A stretch of DNA of 64,000 bases from Melioribacteraceae bacterium (GTDB lineage Bacteria > Bacteroidota > Ignavibacteria > Ignavibacteriales > Melioribacteraceae): the NCBI GenBank assembly GCA_021647785.1, contig JAKIUC010000007.1, positions 1 through 64,000 on the forward strand. The letters run 5' to 3'. Below the pieces are notes generated by a model. That model made no database searches. It was given only the letters and a program-made list of their open reading frames with translations, and was not told where the DNA came from. Positions 3,126-31,300 of this stretch are shown piece after piece (position 1 is the stretch's first letter; every line of letters starts with the position of its first letter). Both the position numbers and the translations under genes were made by a program.

Positions 3126-3260
3126 ATTTTTTTGTTGTAAGGAATAGAATGATAACGAGAGAATTACAAAATCTTTCCAAAATTCTACATTTTTCCTATT
3201 CCATTTCATCCCCAAATAAACTATTTTTTACAATTAAATTATTTTTAATTAGGAAGTAGA

Positions 3261-7833: not shown

Positions 7834-7849
7834 AATTTTATTCCTTTTA

Positions 7850-9034: not shown

Positions 9035-9096
9035 AATGTTTCCTTCTTCTTTTAATCAATACTTACGCATAACTTAATAGCTACAGAATAATCAAC

Positions 9097-9201: not shown

Positions 9202-9245
9202 ACATTTCCTTAATTTAACTTGCCATTAAAATTATAATTACTCTG

Positions 9246-10574: not shown

Positions 10575-10651
10575 TATCTCTTTATTTTTAATTTGTGCCA
10601 ATTTGTGAAATTCGTGTCTTGTTTCGTCTCTTAATTAAAAACTCCACAATA

Positions 10652-12112: not shown

Positions 12113-12187
12113 CAGTACCTCATTATCGTTCAAAAAATCGGGGAACAAATATACTATAAATAAATCATATTAGTTATAAATTCTGGG

Positions 12188-12496: not shown

Positions 12497-15400
12497 ATGA
12501 AGCATTATAAAATTGCTGTTACCATTTTATTATTTTTTTCATCCACTCTCTTTGCTGGTACAACAGGAAAAATTGCAGGACGTGTTACAGATGCAGCAAC
12601 TGGCGAACCTCTTCCATTTGCCAATGTTATTGTTATGGGAACTACAATGGGTGCTGCAACTGATTTTGATGGCTACTTTAATATTCTAAATGTATTACCT
12701 GGCACTTATAAAGTAAAAGCCTCCACAATTGGTTACAACGGTGTTACCATTGAGGGTGTTCAAGTAAATATTGATCTTACAACTAATTTGACTTTTGAAT
12801 TGTATGCTACAAGTATAACATTAAGTGAAGATGTTGTTGTAAGAGCTGAACAATCTGTAATCAAAAAGGATGTAGCATCAAATCAAAAAAGTATTAATAC
12901 AGATGAAATTAATGCACTTCCAGTAACTAATATAAATGATTTATTACAACTACAGGCTGGTATCGAACCAGATTTATCTGTAAGAGGCGGTGACCCAAAT
13001 GAAACCCTCTTTATGGTTGATGGTTTTTCAATGAGTGATTCCAGAACTAACAGACCAATATCTAATCTTCCGCTAAGTGCTGTTCAGCAAATATCAGTAA
13101 CTACCGGCGGGTTTAGTGCAGAGTATGCAAACGTACGGTCGGGTATTGTTAATGTTGTTACTCGTGAAGGTGATAAAGAAAAATATCAAGCAGTAGTAAA
13201 CTATAGAATGAGCCCCGCGACCCCAAAGCATTTTGGAATTTCTCCGTACGATGCAAACGCATATTGGCTGCGTCCGTACTTAGATCCGGAAACTGCAATG
13301 GATGGAACAGAGGCTTGGGATAAATATGATGCACGCCAATACCCAACGTGGGATGGGTGGAGAGCATTTTCTGAATTGACTTTAAGGGATGATGACCCAA
13401 CAAATGATTTAACTGCTGAGCAGGCAAAGAGAATTTTTGAATGGCAATATAGAAAGCAAGGTGATATAAAGAAGCCTGATTACAATATTGATTTTGGCTT
13501 TGGCGGTCCAGTTCCATTTGCAAAACCGTTAGGGAATTTAAGATTTTTTGCAAGTTTCAAGAGAGAAGAGAATCAATATTTAATGGAGCTATCTCGTGCA
13601 TCAAAATTAGATGAAACGATGATGATAAAACTTACATCCAATTTAAGTAAAGCAATGAAGTTAGATGTTATTGCATCGTATGGAGAAACCTATGGTACTT
13701 CAGGTTCAAGAATTGGTGGAACTAATATTCTTTCTACCACAGAGGATGTTGCCAACACAATAAACACAAGTAGTTTTACGGTTCCATGGCGTATTCATAC
13801 AAACTTATATTACTCGCCTACTACAGTTTATAACCATATGCTATCTGCAAAACTTACTCATGTTTTAAGTGCAAGTACTTTTTATGAAGTTCAAGCCAAG
13901 AAGTTAGGTGCAAAATATTATACAACCAATATGGGGTATCGTGATACAACAAAAAGGTTTGAAGTATTTCCAGGATATTTTTTGGATGAAGCACCAATAG
14001 GGTTTTGGGGTAGTCCTGTAACTTCAATTGATGGCACTCTGGGAATGGGTGGTGCTGTAAGTACCTCTCGCGATTTTACTGAGACCAGTACGTACTCTGT
14101 TCGTTTCGATTTGGTTAGCCAGCTTGACAATCATAACCAAATTAAAACTGGTGTTGAATTTATTTATGATGATTTTAATATGGTTTTTGGACAAGAGAAT
14201 TTCTTTTTACCGGAAGGAAATGTATGGACTAATATTAAGCAATCTCCTTATAAAGCCTTAGCTTTTATTCAAGATAAATTAGAGTTTGAAGGGTTGGTAG
14301 CCACAGTTGGAGTTTTAGCAGAGTACTCTAACCCCAATGGCAACTGGTATAATATTGGTCCTTATGATGCTGATTTTTTCTCGCAAAACTACAGCCCTGA
14401 AGATGAAGCGTTGTTTAAAACTGAAGCATCGGAAGCACAATTTACGCTTAGTCCGCGTATAGCAATTTCGCATCCTATTACTGAAACATCAAAACTTTAT
14501 TTTAATTACGGGCATTTCTATCAAAAATCGGTAGCAGAAAATCTTTACGAAGAGAGAAGAAAAGCAAACAATCAGTTAACAGTATTTGGAGACCCTTCAA
14601 CAGATCAAGCAAGAACAGTTGCTTACGAGTTGGGTTTTGATCAATCACTTTTTGACCAATTTTTACTTCGTGTTTCGGGATATTACAAAGATATAACAAG
14701 ACAAGAAATGTATGTTCGTTATATCAGTACTGATGGAAAAGCAAACTATCGTAAATTAAAGAGTAATGATTACGAAGATATTTTTGGTTTTGAAGTTGAC
14801 TTATCGCGAATGCAGGGCGATTGGATAAAGGGTAATATTAACTTTGAATATAGAGTTGGAACATCTGGCTATTTTGGACCTCTATTTCAGTACGAGAACC
14901 CAAGCGACCAACGGGAATACCTCAGACGAAACCCAAGCATAGAAAGACCACGCCCAATACCTAAGGTTAAATCTTGGCTCGATTTTCACACACCATATAA
15001 TTTTGGACCCAAAGTATTTAATCAATTTGTACTTGGCGATTGGCATGCAAATGTTATTACAAGATGGACTGCTGGCGAGTGGGATACTTGGAACCCGCAG
15101 CAAGTTCCGGGAATAGAATATAATGTACAATGGGAATCGATGTGGAATGTTGATCTGAAAATTTCTAAAGTTTTTAGTTTTGGTGATATTGATGTAAAGT
15201 TTTTTGCTGATATTTTTAATGTTTTTGATTTAAAACAATTCTCGAATTATTCTTTCCGTAATATTCATGATAGAAACGATTATATGTATTCACTTCATTT
15301 ACCCGAAAATGTGGTTAATGAATTAGGCTATTTGAATAATATTCCGGGTAATGATCAGCTTGGCGATTACAGACCAACTGGAGTTGATTTTGTTCCGATT

Positions 15401-15640
15401 GAATGGGTTAGTGATATAAATGACCCGAACATTAACCCAAATAGTAGAGCACTCTATTATGATGCATCAACAGAAAGGTATATGCAGTATGTGGATGGTG
15501 GATGGAGTAGAGCTGATGCTGCTAAAGTTCAAGATGTATTGACTAATAAAGCATATATCGATATGCCTAATCAGTCATTCTTTACATTTCTGAACCCGAG
15601 AAATATTTTCGTAGGAATTTCTGTAAGCTATAAATTATGA
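12497..15640 (+). CDS. TonB-dependent receptor, first of a tandem pair
   Basis: The protein has 1047 residues. A signal peptide (about 1-20, ending FAGTTG) precedes a carboxypeptidase-regulatory-like beta-sandwich (KIAGRVTDAATGEPLPFANV..., about 25-105). A candidate TonB box (EDVVVRA) and a plug domain (LSVRGGDPNETLFMVDG; GGFSAEYANVRSGIVNVVTREG) follow, then a long beta-barrel with alternating aromatic strands. It resembles SusC-type transporters but has no SusD partner. The next gene encodes a secreted protein, and the same receptor/partner pair is repeated directly downstream. The start ATG has GGAG 10 bases upstream. It probably takes up oligosaccharides, to judge from the amylase and propeller genes further along; that substrate is inferred. 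Confidence 0.88.
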   Translation: MKHYKIAVTILLFFSSTLFAGTTGKIAGRVTDAATGEPLPFANVIVMGTTMGAATDFDGYFNILNVLPGTYKVKASTIGYNGVTIEGVQVNIDLTTNLTFELYATSITLSEDVVVRAEQSVIKKDVASNQKSINTDEINALPVTNINDLLQLQAGIEPDLSVRGGDPNETLFMVDGFSMSDSRTNRPISNLPLSAVQQISVTTGGFSAEYANVRSGIVNVVTREGDKEKYQAVVNYRMSPATPKHFGISPYDANAYWLRPYLDPETAMDGTEAWDKYDARQYPTWDGWRAFSELTLRDDDPTNDLTAEQAKRIFEWQYRKQGDIKKPDYNIDFGFGGPVPFAKPLGNLRFFASFKREENQYLMELSRASKLDETMMIKLTSNLSKAMKLDVIASYGETYGTSGSRIGGTNILSTTEDVANTINTSSFTVPWRIHTNLYYSPTTVYNHMLSAKLTHVLSASTFYEVQAKKLGAKYYTTNMGYRDTTKRFEVFPGYFLDEAPIGFWGSPVTSIDGTLGMGGAVSTSRDFTETSTYSVRFDLVSQLDNHNQIKTGVEFIYDDFNMVFGQENFFLPEGNVWTNIKQSPYKALAFIQDKLEFEGLVATVGVLAEYSNPNGNWYNIGPYDADFFSQNYSPEDEALFKTEASEAQFTLSPRIAISHPITETSKLYFNYGHFYQKSVAENLYEERRKANNQLTVFGDPSTDQARTVAYELGFDQSLFDQFLLRVSGYYKDITRQEMYVRYISTDGKANYRKLKSNDYEDIFGFEVDLSRMQGDWIKGNINFEYRVGTSGYFGPLFQYENPSDQREYLRRNPSIERPRPIPKVKSWLDFHTPYNFGPKVFNQFVLGDWHANVITRWTAGEWDTWNPQQVPGIEYNVQWESMWNVDLKISKVFSFGDIDVKFFADIFNVFDLKQFSNYSFRNIHDRNDYMYSLHLPENVVNELGYLNNIPGNDQLGDYRPTGVDFVPIEWVSDINDPNINPNSRALYYDASTERYMQYVDGGWSRADAAKVQDVLTNKAYIDMPNQSFFTFLNPRNIFVGISVSYKL

Positions 15641-15664
15641 TGAAAAATTAATATAAAAGGTTTT

Positions 15665-17749
15665 ATGATGATCAGAAAAAACAAAATGTGGATTTCTAAA
15701 ATATCTATGATTTCTATTATAATGCTGTTGGTTACTGATGTTTATATAAGTGATGAAACAAAATGGATAGCTGTTGGTAATTTGCATAGCTGGTTTTCAA
15801 GTGCCGGAGCTGAAATTGAGCTTGGTAGAACAGGGGCAATTCCAGACCAGCAGGATGGATTGAGATGGCCTGCACAATTTAAATATCAAGATGCACTAGC
15901 TGGAAAAGCACTATGGATTGGCGTTAAAAATTATAATGACCCAAAAGCCGGAAAGGTTTATCCTTATAAAGTTGTTCATGTTGGTCCTCGCGGGTTTGAT
16001 GAGGAAACAGAAGTTATGCCGGTATCTATGAAGTTAGTAGGAAAATTTAAACATCCAGGTGTTTATGTTGATGGTGTTGGTGCAGGCAAATTAGATTATC
16101 TCGATTTTGTTGACTCTGTTGATGAAAATATGTCGGCTGATAGAGTACTTATTAATAAAGTTCATACTTCAATTGGCATTACAATGACTCGTAAAATATA
16201 TGCCTTCAGTCAGCAGAACCATGACAACTATTACATTTACGATTATGTTTTAGAAAATACAGGAATAATTAATCTTGAGGGAGATGTAATTAAAAAAACT
16301 TTGGAAGATTTAGTTTTATTTTTGCAATACAGATATGCACCAGTGCGTGAATCGGGTCCAAACGGTTATGATTGGCTTCCGCAAAATACTTCTTGGGGAC
16401 GTTCGACAATGAATCATTCTATCTATACGCATCCAACAACTGGCGATCCTTTTCGTATGCAATACTCCTGGTTAGGAAAACACTCGCAAGCGGGTTACGA
16501 TAATATAGGCGGGGCTGATATTGGCGGAGGTTCAAGTGTTGGCGATGGACATCTCGGTTCTGCACAAATTGTTGGTTTCGTTACACTACATGCTGATACA
16601 TCTCCAAGTGATAACACAGATGATATTACCCAACCAACCGCAACTGAAGTTGTAGATTCTGATGGTGCAATTACTTTTGGTAATGACCAATATAATACTG
16701 CCCAAATGGCTAATGAATATAAAGCAATGACTGCAGGTCGTCCAGCTCAATCCCACGCAGAATTGGTTGGTGATACTTTTGCAGATCAGTTTGGAACAAC
16801 TGCAGGCGGATATTCTCAAGGTCAAGGATTTGGACCTTATACTTTAGCTCATGGCGAAAGTCTTCGTTTTGTAATAGCGGAAGGAGTTGGAGGCTTAAAT
16901 AGAGAGATGCAATACAAAATTGGCGGTCAGTGGATAACTGAAACTACTCCATATGTATTACCAGATGGTTCGGAAACAACAAATAGAAATGAATTTAAAA
17001 ACACTTGGGTTTTTACCGGAATTGACTCATTGGTTCAAACATTCGATAGAGCAATTGTTACTTTTAAAGATAGCTTTTATGTTCCTGCACCACCACCGCC
17101 GCCAGCAGAATTTCTTGTTAACTCATTAGGAAACCGAGTTGAACTGCAATGGACAAGCGAATCAGAGGATGATTCAAAATTTGTTGGGTATAAAATTTAT
17201 CGCTCAATCCATACACCTGATACAACTTTTGAAATGCGAATAGATTTAAAACCTTCTGATTTAACAATGGAAGGGAAATATTATGTTTACAACGATACAT
17301 CTTTAAGTAGAGGATTTGATTATTACTACTATATTACTGCTTATGATGATGGTTCAACAAATGATATTAAACTGAATGTTCCACTTGAAAGCAGTAAGTT
17401 TTATACTATGACGGTTGAGCCGGCACGCTTAAAAAGATTACCAGGAAATAGCCTAGCTGATATTAGAGTAGTTCCAAATCCATATAATATTCGTTCACGA
17501 GAGTTACAATATGGCAGCAGTGGTGCCGATAGAATAATGTTTTTAGATATTCCGGGAATATGCACAATAAAAATTTATACCGAGCGTGGTGATTTAATTG
17601 AAACTATTGAACACGATGATAATAGTGGTGATGCAGCATGGAATTCAGTAACACAATATAGACAGGTTGTGGTTAGTGGAGTTTATATTGCAGTAATCAC
17701 AACTCCGGAAGGTGAAAGAGCAATTAGAAAATTTGTAATAATTAGGTAA
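15665..17749 (+). CDS. Secreted receptor-partner protein with T9SS-like C-terminus (copy 1)
   Basis: The function of this 694-residue protein is not recognised. A hydrophobic N-terminal segment (about 9-28) acts as signal or anchor. The main domain contains a conserved KWIAVGNLHSWFSSAGAE start and the YAFSQQNHDNYYIYDYVLENTG block. A proline stretch (APPPPPPAEF, about 477-486) leads to a fibronectin type III-like domain (about 490-590). The end carries IRVVPNPYN and finishes GVYIAVITTPEGERAIRKFVIIR, a layout like type IX secretion sorting domains. It lies 24 bp after the TonB receptor, and its homologue follows the second receptor in the same way. It is probably a surface or extracellular partner in place of SusD. 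Alternative: an S-layer or adhesion component. Confidence 0.75.
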   Translation: MMIRKNKMWISKISMISIIMLLVTDVYISDETKWIAVGNLHSWFSSAGAEIELGRTGAIPDQQDGLRWPAQFKYQDALAGKALWIGVKNYNDPKAGKVYPYKVVHVGPRGFDEETEVMPVSMKLVGKFKHPGVYVDGVGAGKLDYLDFVDSVDENMSADRVLINKVHTSIGITMTRKIYAFSQQNHDNYYIYDYVLENTGIINLEGDVIKKTLEDLVLFLQYRYAPVRESGPNGYDWLPQNTSWGRSTMNHSIYTHPTTGDPFRMQYSWLGKHSQAGYDNIGGADIGGGSSVGDGHLGSAQIVGFVTLHADTSPSDNTDDITQPTATEVVDSDGAITFGNDQYNTAQMANEYKAMTAGRPAQSHAELVGDTFADQFGTTAGGYSQGQGFGPYTLAHGESLRFVIAEGVGGLNREMQYKIGGQWITETTPYVLPDGSETTNRNEFKNTWVFTGIDSLVQTFDRAIVTFKDSFYVPAPPPPPAEFLVNSLGNRVELQWTSESEDDSKFVGYKIYRSIHTPDTTFEMRIDLKPSDLTMEGKYYVYNDTSLSRGFDYYYYITAYDDGSTNDIKLNVPLESSKFYTMTVEPARLKRLPGNSLADIRVVPNPYNIRSRELQYGSSGADRIMFLDIPGICTIKIYTERGDLIETIEHDDNSGDAAWNSVTQYRQVVVSGVYIAVITTPEGERAIRKFVIIR

Positions 17750-17761
17750 AATAAATTTACA

Positions 17762-20700
17762 TTGAAAAAGAAAAAAATAAATATTAAAAATACTTTTGCA
17801 GTTCTTTCTGTTCTGTGTGCCATGGCTGTAAATATATTTGCTGGAACAACTGGTAAAATTTCAGGCAAAATTACTGATAATGAAACTGGAATGCCTTTAC
17901 CCGGTGCAAATATTATAATTGAAGGAACAAGTATTGGAACTGCTTCCGATATTGATGGCAATTATTCAATATTGAATATCTCTCCGGGAATTTACACTAT
18001 TAAATTTTCGATGGTTGGGTTTGCAGATGTTTTTGTTAAAGAAGTACAAGTTGAAATTGATTTAACTACAAATGTTAATGTTCAACTAACAACAACTTCA
18101 ATTAGCAGTGCAGAGGTTATAATAGTTGCCGAACGCCCCGTAGTTGCTCGTGATGTTTCAAGCAGCCAAATGAATATTACTGGGAAGAGCATTGAATCGC
18201 TCCCTGTAACTACTGTTGAGCAAGTTATAGCTTTGCAAGCAGGAGTTCAGCAAAATAGTAGCGGTATTATTGTGCGTGGCGGCAGTGCTAACCAAACTGT
18301 TTTTATGGTTGATGGATTTTCCCAAAACGATGAACGTGCAAATCTTCCATATACAACTGTGAGTTTAAGTTCAGTAAAAGAGATTAAAGTTCAGACAGGT
18401 GGTTTTAATGCAGAGTATGGAAATCTTCGTTCAGGTCTAATAAATGTTGTTACTAAAGAAGGAAGCAGAACAAAATATAGTGCAACAGTTAGTTTCAGAA
18501 TGGCACCTGCTGCGGCAAAGCATTTTGGAAATTCTATTTACGATCCTTATTCATATTTTAATAGACCATACAACGACCCCGATGTAATGTGGGAAGGTAC
18601 AAATAGTGGTGCGTGGGATAGCTATATGCAGCGTCAGTATCCGCAATTTGAGGGTTGGAATTCTATTAGCGAAAGTACATTACGTAACGCAGATGAAGCA
18701 ACACACCTTACTCCTGCAGCAGCAAAGCAAATATACAATTGGGAACATCGTAGAGTTGGAGATATCGAAAAGCCAGATTATAACGTGGATGTTGGTTTTG
18801 GCGGACCTGTACCTTTTGTTAGCAGCATGTTAGGAGATCTTCGTTTCTACTTCTCTTATTTTAATACAAATGAAATGTTTGTTTTCCCTCTTTCAAGAGA
18901 TTCTTATAAAGAAGATTATAGTCAAATTAAATTTATCTCAAATATCTCTACAGGTCTTAAACTTACAGTAAGTGGAATGTATGGCGAGATAAATTCTGTT
19001 TCCGCTTATAATTGGAACCCTCCAACGGGAAGTGTTTTACGTTCTACTGCTGGTGTTGCAAATTTGGTAAATAGAGAAAATCTTTATATGCCTGGTTATT
19101 ACAGTCCATCCGATATTTATAGAACTTCTGTTGGTGCAAAATTGACTCATGTTTTTTCGGCAGAAACATTTTATGAAATTAAAGTACAACACAAAATTAA
19201 TAGATATAACACTTTTGAATTACCTGGAAGAGATACAAGCAAAATTTTTGAAGTTGTTCCAGATTATTTTGTTGATGAAGCACCCTATGGATACTGGGGA
19301 GAAAGTGTTAGCGGCATTGATGGAATGTCTCTTGGCGGTTGGATGAACCTTGGGCGTGATAAGAGTGTGAACTCAACAACATCATTTAAGTTTGATTATA
19401 CAAGCCAAATGAACCAAAGCAATATGGTAAAGGCTGGATTTGAAGTTGTATATAATAATTATGATATAAACACAGGCACATTTAGTCCTTCGATGACAAC
19501 CTGGACACGAAGCCAAATTTACGAACTTACTCCATTTAGATTATCTGCGTATGCACAAGATAAATTGGAGTATGAAGGGTTTGTGATGAATGTTGGTTTA
19601 CGTGCCGATTATTCTGCTCCAAATTCTAATTGGTATCAACTCACAGAGTATGACCAAAATTTGCAAGCTGGTTATGGAAACTCTATTGAAGAAAATGTTC
19701 CAACAGAGAAAGTTTCCGGTCTGCTATATTTAAGTCCACGATTAGGGATATCACATCCAATAACAACTAACTCGAAGTTGTATTTCAACTATGGTCACTT
19801 TAAGTCAGAGCCATCCTCATCTTTTCGTTTTTTATTGCAAAGAGAATCAAATGGAATGGTTAAGTTTATTGGTAATCCAAATATGGAACCAGAAAAGACA
19901 ATTGCATACGAGTTAGGGTTTTCTCAAAATATATCTGATATGTTTTTGTTAAATATTGCTGCCTATTATAAAGATATTACAAACCAACCAGGTTGGATAT
20001 TTTATCAAAACACAAATTCTTCAGTTTCATATAATACTTCGGCTAACAATAATTATCAAGATATTAGAGGGTTCGAGGTTACTCTATCAAAAACACGCGG
20101 CGATTGGTTTAGAGGATTTATAAACTATACTTATGATGTAAGAACTTCCGGCTATTTTGGATTGACTCGTTATTATGAAGACCCAATTAAACAAAGAGAT
20201 TATCTAACATTGAATCCGTATCAGTCTAAGCCTCAACCACAACCTTATGCCCGATTAAATGTAGAGTTTTTAACTCCGGCTAATTATGGTTCAGAAGTTG
20301 GTGGAATTTACCCTTTGGGTAGTTGGAGTTTTAACGTACTTGCTGATTGGCGTTCGGGTGCTTACAATACATTTAATCCCAAGAGTTTACCAGGAATTAT
20401 TGACAACGTGCAATGGGTTGATTGGTTTAATATTGATATCCGTCTCTCAAAAACTATTGTTCTGGAGAGTTTTAATTTGCAATTTTATCTCGATGTTTCA
20501 AATGTGCTGAATTTAAAAAATCTTAGTTCTGCTGGGTTTTCCGATAGGTTTGATAGACTTGATTATATGGAATCGCTTCATTTTGATTGGGAAGAAGGTG
20601 CTGAAAAGGGGAACGATAAAGTTGGCGATTATAGAGCAGCAGGTGTCGAGTATGTTAATATCGAATCTGTAGAAAATATTAATCAGGTTGTTCAACCAAA

Positions 20701-20893
20701 TACCGCAACTCTTTATTACGATTCGGGAATGGATAGATATTTTCAATATGAAAATAATGGCTGGCAGCGAGCTAATCAATCATATGTACAGAGTGTTATC
20801 TCTAATAAAGCGTATATAGATAATCCAAATATTCAGGCATTTACATTTTTGAATCCACGCACAATAACGCTTGGAATAAGAATAGATTTTTAG
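17762..20893 (+). CDS. TonB-dependent receptor, second of a tandem pair
   Basis: This 1043-residue homologue of the receptor two genes upstream has the same order: signal peptide (about 1-27), carboxypeptidase-regulatory domain (KISGKITDNETGMPLPGANI), plug (IIVRGGSANQTVFMVDG; GGFNAEYGNLRSGLINVVTKEG) and barrel. Shared barrel landmarks include KHFGNSIYD, RQYPQFEGW and PDYNVDVGFGGPVPF. The only start that keeps the basic region of the signal peptide is TTG at 17762, which has no clear Shine-Dalgarno site. It starts 12 bp after the preceding stop, so translation coupling is likely. The two receptors differ throughout, so the duplication is old. Confidence 0.88.
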   Translation: MKKKKINIKNTFAVLSVLCAMAVNIFAGTTGKISGKITDNETGMPLPGANIIIEGTSIGTASDIDGNYSILNISPGIYTIKFSMVGFADVFVKEVQVEIDLTTNVNVQLTTTSISSAEVIIVAERPVVARDVSSSQMNITGKSIESLPVTTVEQVIALQAGVQQNSSGIIVRGGSANQTVFMVDGFSQNDERANLPYTTVSLSSVKEIKVQTGGFNAEYGNLRSGLINVVTKEGSRTKYSATVSFRMAPAAAKHFGNSIYDPYSYFNRPYNDPDVMWEGTNSGAWDSYMQRQYPQFEGWNSISESTLRNADEATHLTPAAAKQIYNWEHRRVGDIEKPDYNVDVGFGGPVPFVSSMLGDLRFYFSYFNTNEMFVFPLSRDSYKEDYSQIKFISNISTGLKLTVSGMYGEINSVSAYNWNPPTGSVLRSTAGVANLVNRENLYMPGYYSPSDIYRTSVGAKLTHVFSAETFYEIKVQHKINRYNTFELPGRDTSKIFEVVPDYFVDEAPYGYWGESVSGIDGMSLGGWMNLGRDKSVNSTTSFKFDYTSQMNQSNMVKAGFEVVYNNYDINTGTFSPSMTTWTRSQIYELTPFRLSAYAQDKLEYEGFVMNVGLRADYSAPNSNWYQLTEYDQNLQAGYGNSIEENVPTEKVSGLLYLSPRLGISHPITTNSKLYFNYGHFKSEPSSSFRFLLQRESNGMVKFIGNPNMEPEKTIAYELGFSQNISDMFLLNIAAYYKDITNQPGWIFYQNTNSSVSYNTSANNNYQDIRGFEVTLSKTRGDWFRGFINYTYDVRTSGYFGLTRYYEDPIKQRDYLTLNPYQSKPQPQPYARLNVEFLTPANYGSEVGGIYPLGSWSFNVLADWRSGAYNTFNPKSLPGIIDNVQWVDWFNIDIRLSKTIVLESFNLQFYLDVSNVLNLKNLSSAGFSDRFDRLDYMESLHFDWEEGAEKGNDKVGDYRAAGVEYVNIESVENINQVVQPNTATLYYDSGMDRYFQYENNGWQRANQSYVQSVISNKAYIDNPNIQAFTFLNPRTITLGIRIDF

Positions 20894-20908
20894 CAGGAAA
20901 AATTAAAA

Positions 20909-23002
20909 GTGAAAAATAAATTAAAACACATATTACTCTGGGTCTTTGCAGCAAGTCAACTTTTTGCTCAAGTCCAATCATCCGATAAAAGGTATGTAAG
21001 AATCGGTTCACTCCAAAGTCACTTCTCGGCTTATGGTTCAGAGCGTGCTTGGAATAGTTCATACTATGAAGGAATGAGATGGCCCGCTGATTATGCTTTT
21101 CAAGATAATTCAGTAATTAAACGCTCGTGGATTGGAATTGAGGATTTTACAGATGTTTACGGAAAGTACTGGGAAAAATATGCAGCTTACCTTGCTGCAG
21201 ATAATGTTGGTGAAACTATCTTTCCTGTGGAATTAAAGCAAACAGCAAAGTTTACACCAACCAAAGTTATTGTTGATGGTAATAGTTTGTACGATTTATA
21301 TCTGAATGATATTGATGATTACGATAGTTCTATTGTTGCTGATAGAGTTATATCGAATGTAGTTAATACCTATATGGGGCTTACGGTTTCCAGAACAGTT
21401 TATGCTTTTAGTCAACAGTATCACGATAACTATTTCATAAAAGTTTATACATATACAAATACTGGAAATATTGATTACGATGATGATATTGAATTAACAG
21501 CACCAATAAAAGGTTTAAGAATTGGATGGGGAACACGTTACAGTGCATCTCGTGAAGGTGCTATGAATATTGGCGATGGAACATCTTGGGGTAAACATTT
21601 TTGGGTTACAAAGCGTGGCGAAAATTATCCGGAACACCAAAATGATGTGATTGATGAAACTAACCCAATTGTTGATTGGATAAGGTGCGGCTTTGGATGG
21701 GCAGGTCAATCTGGTACAAATGGGTTCAATAATATTGGAGGACCAGAAAGAACAAAGAATGGACGACTAACAGCAATTCAACACGTGGGTTCTGCAATTC
21801 TGCATGTAGATAAAAGTGCAGCAGATAAAAGTGATGATGCAAACCAGCCCTTAACACTTGGCTGGCATGCTGGAGATACTTATCCAAAGTTGGGCAACTC
21901 GCGAGATGTAACCCCTATGATTCAAGTATATAACATGTTAAGTGGAATTCCTAATAAAGGTCTTGGTGGAACTGACCGTTTTGATGAAACAAATCTTGGT
22001 ACACCAGGAACAACCGAGTATTTAACCAATAATGTTGATCCATATACAATTCACAATGATGGCGGTGGAACAAATATTTGGGTCAATTACGGACCGTTCG
22101 ATTTGGCACATGGCGAAAGTATAACAATAGTTGAAGCCGAGGGTGTTGCTGGTTTAAATAGGGAAGAAGCCGAAGCGATTGGTAAAGATTGGTTGGATGC
22201 TACTGGTAGTGAAACATTCCTTTTACCCGATGGAACAACCACATCAAACAAAGATGTATTTAAAAACAGTTGGGTCTATACTGGTAAAGATTCTATTATG
22301 CAGACTTTCGGAAGAGCTAAAAGAAATTTCGATTCTGGATTTGGAATTCCAAAAGCACCAGAACCACCAGCACTATTTGAAATTAAATCTCAAGGCGATA
22401 AAATTAATTTATCGTGGTATGCTTCGGCTTCAGAATCAGAGTCTAATTTTAAAGGCTATAAAATATTTAGAGCTATTGGCAAACCTGATACAACATATCA
22501 GGAAATCTATTTTGCACCAGTTGGCGAATATGAGTATAACGACACGGAAGCTGCACGAGGATTTTCATATTACTACTATATTGTTTCTGTTACTGATGGA
22601 AGCAAAAATAGTTCGGGTGCAGCAAACCCTACTGGTGAGTTAATTAGTAGCAGGTTCTATACAAAAACAACACAGCCAGCATTTTTAAGAAGAAAGCCTG
22701 GCAACAGTTTGGAGAATATACGCGTAGTTCCTAATCCATTTAATGTTAGAGCACGCGAATTACAATTTACTGGTGAACCTGATAAAATTATGTTTTTAGA
22801 TATACCAGGTTACTGTACTATTAAAATTTATACAGAACGTGGAGATTTAATTAAAGAAATAAATCACGATAACGGAAGTGGAGATGAAACTTGGAATTCC
22901 GTTACTTCTTCGAGGCAAGTTGTAACCAGTGGTGTTTATATTGCCGTATTTACTACTCCGGAAGGAGAAAGAGCTATCAGAAAATTTGTAATAATCCGTT
23001 AG
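20909..23002 (+). CDS. Secreted receptor-partner protein with T9SS-like C-terminus (copy 2)
   Basis: This 697-residue homologue of the partner gene at 15.7 kb has a signal peptide ending near SQLFAQ (about 20). It shares blocks such as YVRIGSLQSHFSAYGSE, YAFSQQYHDNYFIKVYTYTNTG and NNIGGPERT, a fibronectin-like segment (about 485-590) and the same C-terminal tail (VVPNPFN...GERAIRKFVIIR). The start is GTG, with AGGAAAAA upstream. It follows the second receptor by 16 bp. The final 40 residues are almost the same as in copy 1 while the body has diverged, as expected of a conserved export or sorting signal. No enzyme motif was seen. Confidence 0.75.
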   Translation: MKNKLKHILLWVFAASQLFAQVQSSDKRYVRIGSLQSHFSAYGSERAWNSSYYEGMRWPADYAFQDNSVIKRSWIGIEDFTDVYGKYWEKYAAYLAADNVGETIFPVELKQTAKFTPTKVIVDGNSLYDLYLNDIDDYDSSIVADRVISNVVNTYMGLTVSRTVYAFSQQYHDNYFIKVYTYTNTGNIDYDDDIELTAPIKGLRIGWGTRYSASREGAMNIGDGTSWGKHFWVTKRGENYPEHQNDVIDETNPIVDWIRCGFGWAGQSGTNGFNNIGGPERTKNGRLTAIQHVGSAILHVDKSAADKSDDANQPLTLGWHAGDTYPKLGNSRDVTPMIQVYNMLSGIPNKGLGGTDRFDETNLGTPGTTEYLTNNVDPYTIHNDGGGTNIWVNYGPFDLAHGESITIVEAEGVAGLNREEAEAIGKDWLDATGSETFLLPDGTTTSNKDVFKNSWVYTGKDSIMQTFGRAKRNFDSGFGIPKAPEPPALFEIKSQGDKINLSWYASASESESNFKGYKIFRAIGKPDTTYQEIYFAPVGEYEYNDTEAARGFSYYYYIVSVTDGSKNSSGAANPTGELISSRFYTKTTQPAFLRRKPGNSLENIRVVPNPFNVRARELQFTGEPDKIMFLDIPGYCTIKIYTERGDLIKEINHDNGSGDETWNSVTSSRQVVTSGVYIAVFTTPEGERAIRKFVIIR

Positions 23003-23028: not shown

Positions 23029-24093
23029 ATGTTAAACAAAGTGAAATCCCGTTTTTCCTCGGGGAAAAACAATATTACCAATGTATTAGCCAGAATACTC
23101 TTATTTATCTTTTTGGTCAGTTCAAATACATTCGGACAAGATAATCAGAAACTTGCACAGACTGGGTTTCAATTTCTTACTGTAGGTACAAATGCACGCT
23201 CGGCAGCTTTGGGTGAGGCATTTACAACACAAGATGGAACTGCTATTGCAATGTTTCATAACCCTGCTGGGTTATCACGCATGACTACTTCATCTGATGT
23301 TACAATAAGCCAAATGACATGGATTGCTGATATTAATTACTACTCCGGAGCGGTTTCGTTAAACCTTGATTCCTACGGAGTTTTTGGTTTTAGTTTTAAC
23401 TATGTCGATTATGGCGAGTTCCTTTGGACAAAAGTTGATCCAACATCTGAAAAAGGTTATTCTGATATTCCAGGTTGGGGAATGCCAACATCTTATATGA
23501 TGGGAATTAGTTATGGAAAAGAACTATCCGATAAATTTGCAGTGGGCGGAACTATTAAATATGCTAATCAAAATTTAGGTTCAAGTTATGTTCCTGTAGA
23601 TTATATAACATTGGATGATGGAAGAGATTCAATAGTTGTTGGTACCGAAGAATATAACAAAGGAGTTATTGCTTTCGATTTTGGTACAATTTATAAAACC
23701 GGATTTAAGAGCTTAGCTTTTGGAATGTCGATAAGAAATTTTGCGAGTGAGCAAAAATATGAAAAAGAGAGTTTTCAACTTCCACTTATGTTCAGAATTG
23801 GTATATCAATGGATTTAATGGATTTCTTCGATTCGGTTAGTGAGATTAACAAATTTAAGCTATCTATCGATGCTGTACACCCGCGCTCATTTCCTGAATA
23901 TTTATCAATTGGCGGAGAGTATGTTTTTAGTGATATATTCTATTTGAGGCTTGGCTATATTACTTCGCAAAGTGATTATAGTTATTCAGTTGGTGCAGGT
24001 GTAAATTATTTTGGTGTGTCGGTTAACTATGCCTACACTCCATTTAATACATTTAATGATGTTAACAGATTTACAGTTGGATTTGCATTTTAA
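23029..24093 (+). CDS. PorV/PorQ-family outer-membrane barrel
   Basis: The 354-residue protein has a cleavable signal (ending NTFGQ near 36) and the family hallmark TGFQFLTVGTNARSAALGEAFTTQDG, then HNPAGLSRM. Beta-strands run to a C-terminal Phe (VGFAF), typical of barrel assembly. PorV and relatives are FadL-like barrels, and PorV shuttles type IX cargo to the attachment complex. It follows the two receptor/partner pairs and precedes genes for T9SS-tagged proteins, which fits a role in exporting them. Whether it is the general PorV or a dedicated copy cannot be told from this window. The start has TTAGGAGCATAAA upstream. Confidence 0.8.
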   Translation: MLNKVKSRFSSGKNNITNVLARILLFIFLVSSNTFGQDNQKLAQTGFQFLTVGTNARSAALGEAFTTQDGTAIAMFHNPAGLSRMTTSSDVTISQMTWIADINYYSGAVSLNLDSYGVFGFSFNYVDYGEFLWTKVDPTSEKGYSDIPGWGMPTSYMMGISYGKELSDKFAVGGTIKYANQNLGSSYVPVDYITLDDGRDSIVVGTEEYNKGVIAFDFGTIYKTGFKSLAFGMSIRNFASEQKYEKESFQLPLMFRIGISMDLMDFFDSVSEINKFKLSIDAVHPRSFPEYLSIGGEYVFSDIFYLRLGYITSQSDYSYSVGAGVNYFGVSVNYAYTPFNTFNDVNRFTVGFAF

Positions 24094-24188: not shown

Positions 24189-25400
24189 ATGTTAAAGAGA
24201 ATAAAAAAACTGCTTCTCTTATCAATAATTAGTGGAATAAGTTTATTCACTTTTATACAATGCACAAACGATTATCCAAACAGTGTTTATAATCCGGATG
24301 CAGCGTTTAAACCAAATCCCACAATTACTAAAATGCAGCCAGATTCTGCACTTGCCGGCATTGATGAAATTACAATTGTCGGAACTAATTTTTCAACTAT
24401 TCCCGATGAAAACTTAGTCTATTTTAATGGAGCAAAAGCTACTGTTCTTTCTTCCGATGCAAATAATATAGTAGTGCAAGCTCCAAATCTTCCTTTAGAT
24501 TCAATAAGGGTGCAGGTAAGTATTTCTGGTGCTTTAAATTTTGCAGAATTTACACCATATAAGTTAATGCCTGCAATTATTAATTATAGCGATTTTGATA
24601 AGTTTGATGAGACATCAGGTCTTGCAATGGATGCGGATGAAAATCTTTTTGTGTCGTTAGATTCTCCATCGCGTATAGTTAAAGTTGGAACAGATCAAGT
24701 TAGAAATGAATATACAGCAACGTTGCGTAAATCGACACAAATGAAGTATGGACCAGACGGAACTATATTTTATGTAAATGCAATTCAGTATCTATTAAAA
24801 GTTAAAGCTGATGGTGCTGGAGATGAATTATTTGCCGTGCTTCCTGGAGCTGCTTACGATTTAGATTTTGATCAAAACATGAATCTATATTGCGGTGGTG
24901 GTGCCGGTGGTATTTATCGTGTAAAAATGGATAAATCGAACGAGACAAAATATCAATATACAGATGTTTATATTCACGCTCTTCGAGTATTTAACAACTA
25001 CCTTTACGTTGGTGCAACTTACAAAGGTGATGATGCCGGTCATGTTAAGGAAGGAATTTGGAGACATGAAATTACTTCGGCAGATGGTGATTTAGGGGAG
25101 AAAGAATTAGTCTTCGATTTCGGTAAATCTTTTGTTGGCTATACTGTTCTATCACTTGCCTTCGATGTTGATGGTTTAATGTATATTGGCTCAGATGCTC
25201 CGGAAGGAATTATTGTTGTTAATGTGGATGGAACATTTCAACCCTTATATGAAGGTGTAATGGAAGGCGAAGCCTATGCTATGACTTGGGGAAATGATGG
25301 TTTTCTCTATGTTACAAGAAAAAGCACCGATGAACAGAAACGAAGAATTTTAAGAATAAATATGAGAAAAACAACAGCACCCTATTTTGGAAGGAACTAA
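24189..25400 (+). CDS. TIG-domain beta-propeller lipoprotein
   Basis: The protein has 403 residues. A basic, hydrophobic leader ends in FIQC (Cys near 26), a loose lipoprotein box, suggesting an outer-membrane lipoprotein. An IPT/TIG Ig-like domain (about 46-122: PTITKMQPDSALAG...VYFNGAKATVLS) is followed by repeated propeller blades of the SMP-30/NHL type (DENLFVSLDSPSRIVKV; DQNMNLYCGGGAGGIYRV; DVDGLMYIGSDAPEGI). TIG-lipoproteins of this form act as glycan-binding surface proteins (SusE/F-like) in Bacteroidota, which fits the neighbours. Strong ribosome site AAGGAG. The 95-bp gap before it holds no gene. Confidence 0.75.
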   Translation: MLKRIKKLLLLSIISGISLFTFIQCTNDYPNSVYNPDAAFKPNPTITKMQPDSALAGIDEITIVGTNFSTIPDENLVYFNGAKATVLSSDANNIVVQAPNLPLDSIRVQVSISGALNFAEFTPYKLMPAIINYSDFDKFDETSGLAMDADENLFVSLDSPSRIVKVGTDQVRNEYTATLRKSTQMKYGPDGTIFYVNAIQYLLKVKADGAGDELFAVLPGAAYDLDFDQNMNLYCGGGAGGIYRVKMDKSNETKYQYTDVYIHALRVFNNYLYVGATYKGDDAGHVKEGIWRHEITSADGDLGEKELVFDFGKSFVGYTVLSLAFDVDGLMYIGSDAPEGIIVVNVDGTFQPLYEGVMEGEAYAMTWGNDGFLYVTRKSTDEQKRRILRINMRKTTAPYFGRN

Positions 25401-25532: not shown

Positions 25533-27953
25533 ATGAACAGAATAATGAGATTATTTATATCATTATTTTTTATTGCGAGCATGTTAACAGCTCAGTCGTG
25601 GCAGTTTGATAAAGTTTTTCTTGATCTAAATGCCCCACAATCAAACGGAACAGGTTTCCATGGTGTTGCAGTGGATCCAAATGGAAACATCTGGATGGCT
25701 GTTTACGGAGACTTAGTAACGGAAGTACTTATAGATGGTACTGATACAACATGGACACGACCAATTTTGGTTATGGATCCAAATGGTAATCATTTACCAT
25801 TCTCACCACTTTATTTATTAGAATATCCCAACAGTACTGTAGATACACTTACAGATAACCCACGCGGATTAAATACAGATAAAGATGGAAATATTCTTTA
25901 CACAGCATATAATACAATTTATAGAATTGATTATACTAATGGTAAAGGGTTAAATAAATTTTCACCTCAAAATGGTGCATCTTTAACTAATGCAGCACAA
26001 TCAGCAGCAGATGGAAATATCTACACTGGTTACGTTGTACCTGGTGGAAAACCAATTTTTATGTTGGATAATGATTTCACATTGTTAGGAAATGCAACAG
26101 ACTCTATTTTCTATATTAACAGATCTGTTACAGTTAGTGATAATGGACAAGACCTTTATACAGGTTCAACATGGAGTGGTTTTGGAGTTTCACATTTTAA
26201 TTCTTCTGCTCCTGGTTTAATTAACTTTGCACCAGTTGACACATTAGGAAACTGGTACGATTATTATGATGAAACATTAGATAGCACATACGATGTAATG
26301 TTATGGGCAAGTACAGTTGCAATTGGTCCTGATGGCTTATTATGGGCTGGTAACTTGCGTCCAGATTGGTCTGGTCCAAAAGGTGGTGCATGGTATGCTT
26401 ATGATGTAACAACTGGTGATTTGAAAGAGACTGTAGGTGTTTCTCTTGGAGATTCAACTGCTGGTGGAATGCGTTCCCCTCGTGGTATTGCATGGACAGC
26501 TGATGGCACTACAATGTACACAGCCGATTTTGATTATAGTGTTATTCAAGTTTGGCAAAAAGGTGCAGCATCAACAGTACCAATTACATTTGAAGTTGAC
26601 ATGAGTGTACAAGTAAACAAAGGCAACTTTGATGCAGCAACAGGTACAGTAACAATAGCCGGTACAATGAATGGCTGGGATGCAGGTGCCACATCAATGT
26701 CTGATGGTGATGGAGACTTGGTCTATTCAGTAACATTAGACCTAACAGAAGGTGATGCACATGAATTTAAGTTTGTAAAAAATGGTGACGGATGGGAATC
26801 AGTACCAAATAGAATGTACACAGTACCTGGAAGTGCTGATACATTCTTAGCATATTTTGATGATGATGATGGACGTGAATTATCAACCATAGCAATCTCA
26901 TTCCAATGTAATATGGAGTTAGAAATAGCAGCAGCACGTTTTAATCCTGCAACCGATACCTTATCCGCACGAGGTTCATTTAATGGCTGGTCAGATGTAA
27001 CAATGCTAAGCCCATCAGCAACCAATCCAAACATCTACGAAGGAGCAGCACAATATGAAACCTTTGATGGAGATGTAATTTACTATAAATTTGCATATAC
27101 AACACCGAGTGGTACTAATTGGGAAACAAATCCACCAGAATCGGATAACTACGAACATACAGTAAATGCAACAGATATTTCAAACGGATTTACAGTTGTA
27201 CCATTACGTGGTTATAACAACGCAACATTGGAAACCGTAGTAAACCAAGAATCAGTAATAAGATTTGTGGTTGATATGAATGGAGCAAAAGATGCCAATG
27301 GAGTAGATTTCCCATCGATAGATAATGTAGCAATAGCAGGAGCCAATCCTCCACTTGCATGGCCTGGTGGTGGCTGGCCAGATGATGACCCGAATGTAAT
27401 CTTCTTATTTGATGATGGCACAAATGGTGATGATGTAGCTGGCGATAAAATCTTTAGTAAAGAGATTACATTCCCAATCTATTCTCCATTAACCATTCAG
27501 TATAAGTATGGAGCAAACTGGGGCTTATCATCCAACAATGGAATAAATGATAATGAAGCTGGTGTTGGAGCAGATCACTTCTTAACCTTATTCCCAAGTT
27601 TCTGGTATGGCGATGCAGTTGACGTATTTGGTGTAATGGGAGAAAAAGATATAGTAAATGGAGTTGAGCAATTGGGAAGTGAAATACCAGCAAGATATGA
27701 GTTGGGACAGAACTATCCAAATCCGTTTAACCCAAGTACAGTAATCAATTTCTCAATACCAGAGAGTGGATTAGTAACCTTGAAAGTATTTAACATTCTC
27801 GGACAAGAAGTAGTAGAATTAGTAAACGATGTAAAATCAGCAGGTACTTATGAAGTATCTTTTGACGCATCTGGCTTAACAACAGGGATGTATGTTTACA
27901 AAATACAATCAGGTAATTACACAGCAACAAAGAAAATGATGTTGATAAAATAA
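25533..27953 (+). CDS. Secreted propeller protein with starch-module-like domains and T9SS sorting domain
   Basis: The protein has 806 residues. A signal peptide ends near LTAQ (20). A two-part propeller-like region follows (about 30-345, blades such as GVAVDPNGNIWMAVYG and NPRGLNTDKDGNILYTA). Next are three beta-sandwich modules: about 350-450 (ITFEVDMSVQVN...AGTMNGWDAG), 455-565 (RGSFNGWSDV) and 575-690. The C-terminus (about 722-806) is a canonical type A T9SS sorting domain (QNYPNPFNPSTVINFSIPES...KKMMLIK). FNGWxx modules resemble CBM48/SusE-type glycan-binding domains. The protein probably binds alpha-glucan at the cell surface. GGGAGG five bases before the ATG is a near-perfect ribosome site. 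The 3' half uses far more GTA, ACA and CCA codons than the 5' half. Confidence 0.8.
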   Translation: MNRIMRLFISLFFIASMLTAQSWQFDKVFLDLNAPQSNGTGFHGVAVDPNGNIWMAVYGDLVTEVLIDGTDTTWTRPILVMDPNGNHLPFSPLYLLEYPNSTVDTLTDNPRGLNTDKDGNILYTAYNTIYRIDYTNGKGLNKFSPQNGASLTNAAQSAADGNIYTGYVVPGGKPIFMLDNDFTLLGNATDSIFYINRSVTVSDNGQDLYTGSTWSGFGVSHFNSSAPGLINFAPVDTLGNWYDYYDETLDSTYDVMLWASTVAIGPDGLLWAGNLRPDWSGPKGGAWYAYDVTTGDLKETVGVSLGDSTAGGMRSPRGIAWTADGTTMYTADFDYSVIQVWQKGAASTVPITFEVDMSVQVNKGNFDAATGTVTIAGTMNGWDAGATSMSDGDGDLVYSVTLDLTEGDAHEFKFVKNGDGWESVPNRMYTVPGSADTFLAYFDDDDGRELSTIAISFQCNMELEIAAARFNPATDTLSARGSFNGWSDVTMLSPSATNPNIYEGAAQYETFDGDVIYYKFAYTTPSGTNWETNPPESDNYEHTVNATDISNGFTVVPLRGYNNATLETVVNQESVIRFVVDMNGAKDANGVDFPSIDNVAIAGANPPLAWPGGGWPDDDPNVIFLFDDGTNGDDVAGDKIFSKEITFPIYSPLTIQYKYGANWGLSSNNGINDNEAGVGADHFLTLFPSFWYGDAVDVFGVMGEKDIVNGVEQLGSEIPARYELGQNYPNPFNPSTVINFSIPESGLVTLKVFNILGQEVVELVNDVKSAGTYEVSFDASGLTTGMYVYKIQSGNYTATKKMMLIK

Positions 27954-28377: not shown

Positions 28378-31300
28378 ATGTTTCAAATAACAAAAATATT
28401 AGCAATATCGTTAATTATAATTTCAAACATAATTGCACAAACAGTTCCTGTTACACTTCATTACGAACCAGAAATAACTGAATTTACAACTTTAAGATTA
28501 GTCGGAAATTTTAATGGGTGGAATAATGGTGATGATGAAATGATAATGACAGACCCCGATGGTGACGGAGTGTATGAAATTACAAAAGACTTTACCAAAG
28601 GTGTGGAACACATGTACAAATTTGTTTTTGATGCAAACTGGTCTTTTGCATGGAATGACCCTGATAATCCTGACATAAAAATATCAGACAATAACAATTC
28701 AATCTTAAATGTAACCGACCCATACATAACATACTTATTGCCACGAGGTAGAAACTCTGCCTACGAAACCTATTTTGATAAATCGATTGAAGGGGAACCT
28801 ATTAGAGCAATTTTTGCTTACACAGAGGATAACCCAATTGATTTAAATACACTAATTGTTACTATTGATGGGATACCAATTGATAACCCTACGCAATATT
28901 ATATTGAAGAGAAAAAAGAATTTTTCTATCAAACACCTACGCCTCTTCCTGAAGGCAATCATACCATCGTTGTTTCAATTACTTCTCCTCTTGGTACAGT
29001 AACTAAAACATCCACATTCAAAAGAAAGCCTGGTTTGATAGTTTATAAAACACCATTAGATTTTTTCTATGATGAAAATAATACGGGTTCATCAATTATA
29101 CAAAATATTAACTCAGTTTCGTTGGTAGGTGATTTTAACAATTGGAATGAATTGTTTGATAAGATGCAAGATAACAATAGCGATGGCTTGTGGGAAGTTA
29201 CATCCTATCTTGAAGAGGGGAGCTATGAATATAAATTTAAGTTAAATGGCGGGCTATGGATAAACGACCCTGATGAACCAAGCTTCAGTGTTAATACAGA
29301 TAATAATCAATTCTCTGTTGTTATCGATTCTATTCCATCAATAAAACTTACTACTCCAAATGAAAGCACAACATTTAAAATAGACCCGGCAGAATTTTCT
29401 TTTGAAGCTCTATTAAGACCAGGAGCAAAATGGCAAGTTGATGAGGCATCAATTATTGTAAGGGTAAATAATGTGCCGGTTACTTCAACATATTTTTCCG
29501 ATACAAGTTTAGTTACTTCCGCAATTACTTTAACTGGTGAAGGTAATCATCAAGTAAGTATCGAGTTCACTAATAGTGCGGGTTTATCTGCATCAGAAAC
29601 TTTTACTTATGGAATTTACACAAATGAAACTGGGTTTTATTATGCCGATGCAATTGATGATGAACCATACAGCTATCCGGCTGGTGTGCCACAAGGTAGC
29701 TGCGATATAATTTCTGTGCTTATTGATGAAGTGCAAACTCACGATTCACTAATGTTCACAGTTGAGTTCGAAAATATTTCTGATAGAACCAGGCTCGGAC
29801 TTTTAATTACTAATCAAGTTTCAAACTCAGCGGCAGACCCACTGGAACTGGAAATATTAACGGAAGATTGGCAAAATAATGGAGTCTTTGTACCAATTGG
29901 TAAACCGGGTAACTCATATGAAAACACTCTTAAAGAAAATCGATTTTGGGAAGGTAGAGACCCTGTTGTTATTAGTGATAAGGCTTTAATAGTAAATTCA
30001 GATGGTAATAATTTAGAGTTTGCAATTAGTGTGGCATACTTAGATAGTTTGCTCGGCAGTTGGACAAGAGAAAGAAACTTTTATCTCTTTTCCTATTTGG
30101 CTAATGATGATATGAGTGGAAACGGATTTGAAGTTACATCAAATGAAGGAGGCAGCGATAGTATTGAAGATCCGGATATTTATGATGCAGCATTTTTCAG
30201 AAGTGGATTTTGGCAAGACAGGGTTTTCTCTAACTACATTCCTGCCGGTGGAAAAATGGGTCCCAGATTTGTTTCCCTAAATGGAGATGGCAGAGGTCAA
30301 AAATCACTTTCAGCAAGTGATATTTCAGATAGTCTTGCAACTTACGGACCAGCAATTATATTTCTAACCCCTTCGGTTACTTATTGGTATCAGGATGTTA
30401 TAGTGAAAGGAACTATTAGCGACCCCGATATTACTGAAGCTACATTTTCATTTAATGGTGTTGAAAGTAGTGTAACTGTTAAGAATTCGGAATTTGCTGT
30501 ACCTGTTCTTCTCGAAGAGGGAGAGAATGTTATATTTGTAAGAGCCACTGATAACAAGGGGTTCGAGTCAACATCAAAAAACATTGTGTTAAGTTATGAA
30601 AGGGATGCTGAACCAACTGTAACTATTAGTGGAGCGCTAAATGGTAGAAGTGTTTCACTTACTGCAAATGCTTCATCGCCCGATGGTTTAGATTTTACAT
30701 ATTCGTGGATTGATGATGAAAATAATCCGGCATATCTTTTTGGTACTGCATCAAGTAAAACTATACAGTTCGATGTTCCAGCAGAGGAAGGTGAATATTA
30801 TATAGACGTTGTAGCAAGAGATTCGCAAGGTAAAACTACAAAAGCAAGAAAACTAATTTTTGCTAAAAATGATTCTGTTTATTTTGCACAAATTAACGAC
30901 CACGCTTCGTGGATTGATGAAGCAATTTTTTATGAAATATATCCAAGAAGTTATAGCCCTACTGGAAATTTTGAAGGTATAAAAAATAAAATTCCCGATA
31001 TGGTAGATTTAGGAATTAATGCAATTTGGTTTATGCCAATTTATACTGGTCCAACTCCTCACGGATATGAAATAACCGACTATTTCGGTTTTGAAGAAGA
31101 CTTTGGCGATGCCGATGATTTTAGAGATTTGATGGAAAGCCTACATGCTGCTGGAATAAAAGTGATTTTAGATTTTGTAGTTAACCACACCTCAATTCAA
31201 CATAGGTTTATGCAGAATGTTTTAGAGTATAAAGAAAACTCACCTTGGGCAGATTTCTATCTCTGGGATGGCGAAGCAGGAAATTCTAACTACGAGTATT

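Follow-up and report, generated by a model that had tools for sequence, protein, structure and literature searches.

How do SusD-poor bacteria of the Fibrobacteres–Chlorobi–Bacteroidetes (FCB) group capture and import glycans? The question is raised by a locus of a Melioribacteraceae bacterium (assembly GCA_021647785.1) that lies in the 64,000 nt of contig JAKIUC010000007.1 analysed here (the window). An earlier note on this DNA, made from the sequence alone, had described a TonB-dependent receptor followed by a secreted partner protein, twice in direct order, and had proposed a structure prediction of the partner and a survey of the co-occurrence of the two families. The four open reading frames (ORFs), R1, P1, R2 and P2, all lie on the forward strand at 12497–23002, exactly where that note had placed them. 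We consider it fairly probable that they form the core of a SusD-free cassette for glycan capture and import, which would work much as SusC and SusD do but with a partner protein unrelated to SusD. This reading is built on gene content and order, on their conservation, on the co-diversification of R and P, on the predicted folds of P1 and of a further protein, T, and on the lack of a match to two SusD models in the genome.

Receptor and partner co-diversify

The trees of R and P mirror each other: for 135 adjacent pairs the correlation is 0.886, whereas none of 500 shuffles exceeded 0.07. As the raw correlation is partly due to shared ancestry, two further proteins of the cassette, V and T, were used as background in 70 cassettes. 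There the raw correlations were 0.896 for R-P, 0.684 for P-V and 0.689 for P-T, and the partial correlation of R-P, given V and T, was 0.758, with 0.33 for R-V, 0.14 for R-T and 0.39 for V-T. A link that exceeds common history is thus seen for R and P but not for P and V.

A conserved unit of five gene types

The intergenic gaps between R1, P1, R2 and P2 are 24, 12 and 15 bases, and the unit is larger than two pairs (Table 1). The order R1-P1-R2-P2-V-T-S continues on one strand to at least 27953, and the gene of a GH13 α-amylase, A, then follows and may be part of the cassette locus. In place of the two-gene module that had been envisaged, the unit is R-P-V-T-S.

Table 1. Features of the cassette locus in the window.
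Feature	Position	Strand	Description	Basis
R1	12497..15640	+	TonB-dependent receptor (CarboxypepD_reg, plug, barrel), 1047 aa	ORF, Pfam
P1	15665..17749	+	Partner, 694 aa: signal peptide, β-supersandwich ~28-475, FN3 ~477-590, PorZ-like C-terminal domain 595-694 (predicted)	AlphaFold2 model
R2	17762..20893	+	TonB-dependent receptor, second subfamily, 1043 aa	ORF, Pfam, R tree
P2	20909..23002	+	Second-subfamily partner, 697 aa, aligns with P1 along its length	Alignment, two trees
V	23029..24093	+	PorV/PorQ-family outer-membrane barrel	NF033709
T	24189..25400	+	Lipoprotein (predicted), IPT/TIG domain and SMP-30/DFPase-type propeller	TIG, Cys25, AlphaFold2
S	25533..27953	+	Secreted (predicted): SGL propeller, CBM20 module, type IX secretion tail	Pfam
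A	28378..32487	+	Secreted (predicted) GH13 α-amylase, 1369 aa; X25, CBM48-type modules, type IX secretion tail	Pfam

Two surveys bear on its conservation: one of 198 genomes of the window's phylum, from which 40 regions around strong P matches were taken, and one of 80 loci, chosen as the best of 422. Of the 150 P genes that could be tested, 146 are preceded by R: 107 of 110 in the 80 loci, and 39 of 40 in the survey regions, where R lies directly upstream. The two families are found together well beyond the window. Among the survey regions that extend far enough, 36 of 39 have V downstream and 34 of 38 have T; L078 was scored as a V miss there although its V frame overlaps the end of P. In the 80 loci V follows P in 71 of 95 cases and T in 35 of 65, and most of the misses (20 of 24 for V, 26 of 30 for T) are at loci with at least two P genes. 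The order in the window is that of L089; others are R1-P1-V-R2-P2-T-S (12 loci) and R1-P1-V-T-R2-P2-S (4 loci).

P matches at E ≤ 1e-40 occur in 42 of the 198 genomes and in 65 of 100 sampled Neomarinimicrobiota genomes. The description of the module as typical of this lineage proved too narrow, as P loci come from Melioribacteraceae, Ignavibacteria, Bacteroidetes, Balneolaceae, KSB1, Calditrichota, Neomarinimicrobiota, WOR-3 and Delongbacteria.

Variations on the unit were also seen. In 39 of the 80 loci, for example L096, P is followed immediately by an extra lipoprotein-like ORF (141–391 aa from stop to stop); of its 40 copies, 37 lie between P and V, and the window has none. In L079 (G039:C3), P has an in-frame stop and no receptor upstream, and is perhaps a decaying copy. 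In seven Neomarinimicrobiota loci (L097, L102, L103, L106, L108, L110 and L114) the two-pair cassette adjoins housekeeping-like ORFs, which we take to be polA, pgsA, rimO and ftsY, a fixed chromosomal place.

The partner is a predicted β-rich protein without SusD features

Neither P1 nor P2 matched any Pfam family at E 0.1, the SusD domain included, and phmmer with P1 against the PDB sequences at E 1 returned nothing. The signal peptide region of both, read by eye, holds no Cys, which sets them apart from the lipoproteins SusD and RagB. The PorZ model NF052228 gives 21.5 and 27.2 bits against a cut-off of 260.

The AlphaFold2 model of P1 (81 sequences; pLDDT 92.7, pTM 0.88) carries all statements on the fold of P, P2 being linked to it by alignment. 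The model is β-rich, with helices of at least four residues making up ~11% of the mature protein (a hand count from the element list), and so departs from the helical TPR-type fold of SusD and RagB; the predicted structure agrees in this with the earlier note, which had found no SusD fold signature. SusD was absent from the 50 fold matches listed for P1, a listing that is no test of SusD likeness. The candidate identity of P as a SusD partner was nonetheless rejected on the missing SusD domain, the β-rich fold and the empty genome searches with the two SusD models tried (PF07980 and PF14322).

What, then, does P resemble? When the P1 model was compared by VIA-align with the PDB chains ranked highest by Foldseek, residues 28 to ~475–520 matched domains of cyclic glucan synthase, cellodextrin and cellobiose phosphorylases, GH116 enzymes and dextran dextrinase (top 27 rows: Z 17.4–18.7, 253–290 residues, 3.2–4.2 Å, 6–12% identity), enzymes of GH94/GH116 type. 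Foldseek TM-scores for these supersandwich chains are low (0.19–0.26 of the query) because only one of several domains is matched. Residues ~475–590 are FN3-like by structure, and residues 595–694 have the fold of a C-terminal domain (CTD) of the type IX secretion system (T9SS), aligning over 87 residues with the C-terminal part of PorZ (5m11; Z 11.4, 2.6 Å, 26% identity). The T9SS tail that the note had ascribed to the partner can thus be recognised in the predicted fold of P1, but by sequence it is weak and falls under the cut-offs.

As the fold matches lie in GH94/GH116-type enzymes, P might be a reduced relative of these with an enzyme activity of its own. This is very improbable: the catalytic residues of those families sit in an (α/α)6 barrel, whereas the aligned part of P1 is the sandwich domain, joined in the model to FN3 and CTD parts where those enzymes have a catalytic barrel, and the model is β-rich. 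The missing match to the barrel excludes no fold by itself.

R1 and R2 are TonB-dependent receptors with carboxypeptidase-regulatory-like and plug domains in Pfam (PF07715: 44.7 and 39.0 bits, cut-off 23.9). On the SusC/RagA model TIGR04056 they score 71.9 and 70.7 bits, far short of the cut-off of 368.25, so that by membership tests on both components the cassette is outside the SusC/SusD families.

Two old subfamilies side by side

The arrangement in direct order that the note had seen is real, R1 and R2 being 44% identical over 1050 columns and P1 and P2 41% over 724. Such an order, with 41–44% identity, could also result from a recent local duplication of one pair that has no further meaning. 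The trees make this barely credible. A FastTree of 156 P rows unites the 35 P2 rows in a single clade (support 100), and a quick IQ-TREE run on 69 selected rows, of which 28 are P2, recovers the same single branch, again with support 100. This clade spans at least four phyla (Ignavibacteriota, KSB1, Calditrichota and Fidelibacterota/Neomarinimicrobiota). The R genes that adjoin P of the P2 clade, 34 in number, in turn group in a single R clade of 35 rows, whose one other member is R2 of L087, where the contig ends within P2.

The two subfamilies recur as neighbours: a script count finds a P from the wider P1 clade at 32 of the 35 P2 loci, and with L085, where P1 is cut at the contig end, and the window itself the figure becomes 34 of 35; only L077 is left. 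At L077 (G097:C53), a pair of R2-P2 type has no P1 nearby, and V stands upstream rather than downstream.

As the 80 loci had been fetched with a P1-led query, a second, P2 query was run on 100 genomes of the phylum of L102. A near full-length P2 orthologue (at least 54% identity) was found in 35 of the 65 family-bearing genomes, leaving out the shorter matches of G281, G242 and G235 (57–60% identity). In 28 of the 35 another P, counted by position and not by tree placement, lies within 8 kb on the same strand; the remaining seven have none on that contig, and in four of these (G233, G262, G265 and G267) the contig starts less than 4 kb upstream of P2. The size of the P1 clade shifts with rooting (33, 49 or 81 rows), and no conclusion is rested on it. 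Recent tandem duplication is thus contradicted by the trees and by the side-by-side recurrence, and so is a plain tandem duplication. Judged by sequence, the two pairs are ancient paralogous subfamilies, P2 being one old clade that usually stands beside P1.

SusD and the PorV family in the host genome

The host genome, G000 (4.25 Mb, 99 contigs, 99% complete), has no SusD match with PF07980 (E 1e-5) or PF14322 (E 0.001). Of the 198 genomes surveyed, none combines a P match at E ≤ 1e-40 (42 genomes) with six or more SusD matches (44 genomes; counts per genome listed up to 11; Fisher p 1e-5). No SusD match at E ≤ 1e-10 was found in 20 of the 42 P genomes. Some relatives do have SusD: in Melioribacter roseus, a starch operon is reported to include SusC, SusD and SusE (PMC3534657).

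G000 has one SprA match and 22 PorV-family matches, 19 of them over the cut-off. Directly behind a TonB receptor and a protein with a P-type C-terminal domain stand 13 of the 22, on contigs C82, C90, C85, C86, C61, C24, C75, C5, C54, C2 and C47 (L165–L175), on C97 and in the window; the other nine have no such pair in the regions examined, outside which C59 and C2:23049 lie. The partners in the eleven triads outside C97 and the window have 710 aa on C61 and 961–1223 aa on the ten other contigs. They share the C-terminal domain of P by profile (36–84 bits), and eight have the FN3 part. The N-terminal profile of P matched none of the eleven, whose N-terminal likeness is seen by eye only. A Pfam scan at E 0.01 of nine ORFs that have a C-terminal domain like that of P left seven without a match and two (L172 and L169:6638) with matches below cut-off only. 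The nine include L169:6638, a second copy next to a triad, but not the partners in the triads of L167, L169 and L174.

The number of barrels might point to another function, namely that R, V and P serve the delivery of T9SS cargo or the assembly of the envelope instead of nutrient import. The 22 PorV-family matches beside a single SprA match, 13 of them behind a receptor/partner pair, would fit such a surface-biogenesis module, as would the PorZ-like C-terminal domain of P1 and the presumed polA, pgsA, rimO and ftsY beside seven Neomarinimicrobiota cassettes. It is nevertheless distinctly improbable: R co-varies with P more than with V (partial correlation 0.76 vs 0.33), glycosidases are among the neighbours, and TonB receptors are importers in known cases.

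V, T and S

V belongs to the PorV/PorQ family (NF033709, 191 bits, cut-off 90) and resembles the PorV chain of 6h3i (E 7.2e-9). It is below the equivalog cut-offs of both PorV (75.8 of 250 bits) and PorQ (95.5 of 220), and is thus neither protein proper. T is a predicted lipoprotein by its Cys25, invariant in 46 sequences. Its AlphaFold2 model (pLDDT 93.2) contains a propeller like those of SMP-30/DFPase-type proteins (Z 29.7 to 2p4o), and 3hrp, a protein of unknown function from Bacteroides thetaiotaomicron, aligns with both domains of T (333 residues, Z 26.0, rmsd 12). S has matches to PF08450 (28.5 bits, cut-off 26.3), to the T9SS tail PF18962 (45.2 bits, cut-off 27) and, narrowly, to the starch-binding module CBM20 (PF00686, 23.9 bits, cut-off 23.3); the starch module recurs, as CBM20 is also present on S of L046.

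Neighbouring enzymes and candidate substrates

A matches PF00128 (175.5 bits) and, all over cut-offs, PF22058, PF16561, PF02922 and PF18962. The T9SS tail is over its cut-off in A as it is in S, unlike TIGR04183 in P. The GH13 enzyme gives the locus the glycosidase expected of a polysaccharide utilization locus, and the substrate of the window's cassette is probably α-glucans, as far as the encoded modules tell.

The enzyme differs in related loci. Among same-strand flanking ORFs of at least 330 aa, near-copies dropped, 76 of 148 downstream (plus the window's amylase) and 51 of 76 upstream were scanned with Pfam, and GHL10 was found in 12 of the 77 and 6 of the 51. CBM9 was found in two flanking ORFs, and GH94, GH31, GH9, GH18 and GH3 gave single matches. 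In 35 genomes chosen for P, with 42 P genes, 27 of 102 GHL10 matches lie within 10 kb of P, against 0.6 expected at random, an expectation that ignores the general clustering of sugar genes; 25 of the 42 P genes, in 25 of the 35 genomes, have a GHL10 gene at that distance. The Melioribacteraceae-type two-pair loci L086, L088 and L090 have GHL10 where the window has GH13, and the ORF cluster that holds these GHL10 genes occurs at 11 of the 80 loci, including L116 and L117 of Neomarinimicrobiota. Cell-wall glycan as the substrate of GHL10-bearing cassettes is only a lead, because it depends on DigH of E. coli being a GHL10 member; E. coli does have a match to PF02638 (GHL10). DigH is reported to cleave denuded peptidoglycan glycans (PMC12288456).

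The same architecture might carry other cargo, such as peptides or another nutrient, and the amylase would then be incidental. The variety of enzymes beside the cassette speaks for this, and RagAB offers a precedent within the SusCD class in the available text (PMC11817032). This is unlikely, though less so than surface biogenesis, given the supersandwich fold predicted for P1, the starch module in S and the enrichment of GHL10.

A model for glycan capture and import

If the cassette does capture and import glycans, R would take up oligosaccharides by TonB-driven transport, and P, exported as T9SS-type cargo and held outside the cell, would bind glycan through its β-supersandwich domain and present it to R or cap R, in the role that SusD has for SusC. 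V would be the barrel that receives or holds the C-terminal domain of P, of S or of both; T and S, a lipoprotein propeller and a propeller with a starch-binding module, may add surface binding; and a secreted enzyme, GH13 here and GHL10 in many relatives, would cut the polymer and feed the importer. T9SS delivery of P is suggested by its C-terminal domain and the adjoining V, by analogy with PorP-like barrels as described in the available text (PMC9143113). Neither of the two outcomes by which the earlier note would have been refuted, a partner family that mostly lacks a TonB receptor or a TPR fold like that of SusD, was obtained. The different type of surface capture module proposed there is therefore still the best reading, with a predicted fold that points to carbohydrate; what we infer is capture itself, the docking of P on R, T9SS export with anchoring through V, and the α-glucan substrate.

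Several observations weigh against it. P1 and P2 score 15.9 and 17.0 bits on the T9SS type A tail model TIGR04183, under its cut-off of 23. The P sequence profile finds no sugar enzyme in the PDB above noise; its best matches are FN3 proteins (E 0.0008 or weaker), and two carbohydrate-active entries match at the FN3 part only. A shared fold by itself shows no function, ligand or binding site of P. In the 70 cassettes the partial correlations of P with V (−0.02) and with T (0.15) give no specific P-V co-diversification, the former leaving unsupported the idea, also considered, of V as a tether that co-evolves with P. One to five SusD matches are present in 22 of the 42 P genomes, and the mutual exclusion of P and SusD is confounded by ancestry: in the only within-group check, on the genomes of family f26 that are in either the P or the SusD listing, it is modest (p 0.04, 10 vs 15 genomes). 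Finally, the housekeeping-like surroundings of the seven Neomarinimicrobiota loci, with flanks identified from the sequences and not by Pfam, are unlike those of a sugar locus.

A bolder version of the model would make R1-P1 and R2-P2 the halves of one ancient double-receptor import machine that predates the separation of several FCB phyla, with partners that are T9SS-delivered β-sandwich lids held by a PorV-family barrel, and the receptor/partner/PorV triad, with 13 loci in this genome, the arrangement on which SusD-poor FCB lineages chiefly rely for uptake across the outer membrane. We regard this extension as doubtful.

Relation to known systems

As in SusC/SusD and RagA/RagB, a TonB receptor with a carboxypeptidase-like N-terminal domain is followed by a partner gene, and the two co-diversify here; as in Sus loci, further surface binding proteins and secreted glycosidases come after the pair. 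P differs from SusD in its missing SusD domain, its predicted β-rich fold, the lack of a lipobox Cys and its T9SS-type end, and the cassette differs in its receptor and in a PorV-family gene within the unit.

BtuG is a propeller lipoprotein for vitamin B12. In BtuB/BtuG of gut Bacteroides, as in the cassette, a surface protein other than SusD is paired with a TonB transporter, according to the text available (PMC10404256). Unlike in that B12 system, P is a supersandwich/FN3/CTD protein, and the propeller lipoprotein is the separate protein T. Cargo with a type B CTD is held by its own FadL-type PorP-like barrel in SprB/SprF and PG1035/PorP, and ten PorP-like proteins are counted in F. johnsoniae (PMC9143113). 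These pairs share with P and V a surface protein with a C-terminal signal and its own barrel, and by analogy V may hold P; here, however, the barrel is of the PorV/PorQ family and the pair is accompanied by a TonB receptor.

In the open literature we recognised nothing as this cassette. In a xylan locus of Rhodothermus, the gene listed after a TonB receptor encodes a hypothetical protein that is assigned to the cell exterior and described as cell-attached (PMC6987092), and neither SusD nor such a cassette is named in the accessible parts of two further papers (PMC5317091; PMC4454575).

Other features of the window

Upstream of the cassette lies a TOTE-type conflict system (64–5924 and 6325–6795), with an archaeo-eukaryotic primase/helicase/PLD protein, an SNF2 helicase and a short ORF that gives a second, partial match to the primase. 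Between the two, on the reverse strand and divergent to the cassette, a cluster at 6829–12148 encodes a YgeY-type hydrolase (538 bits, cut-off 321) and, below cut-offs, an SsnA-like hydrolase, a YgeW/ornithine carbamoyltransferase-like protein and a PLP enzyme; we presume that it resembles the purine-breakdown cluster of E. coli. A link between this cluster and the cassette was set aside in view of its strand.

Significance

No account of polysaccharide uptake by SusD-poor FCB bacteria was found in the open literature, and a co-diversifying family of receptors and partners with a defined predicted fold is a concrete, testable candidate for it. If the reading is true, a partner of TonB glycan transporters would have been invented more than once, and many genes now annotated as 'hypothetical protein' or 'PorV family' would gain a role.

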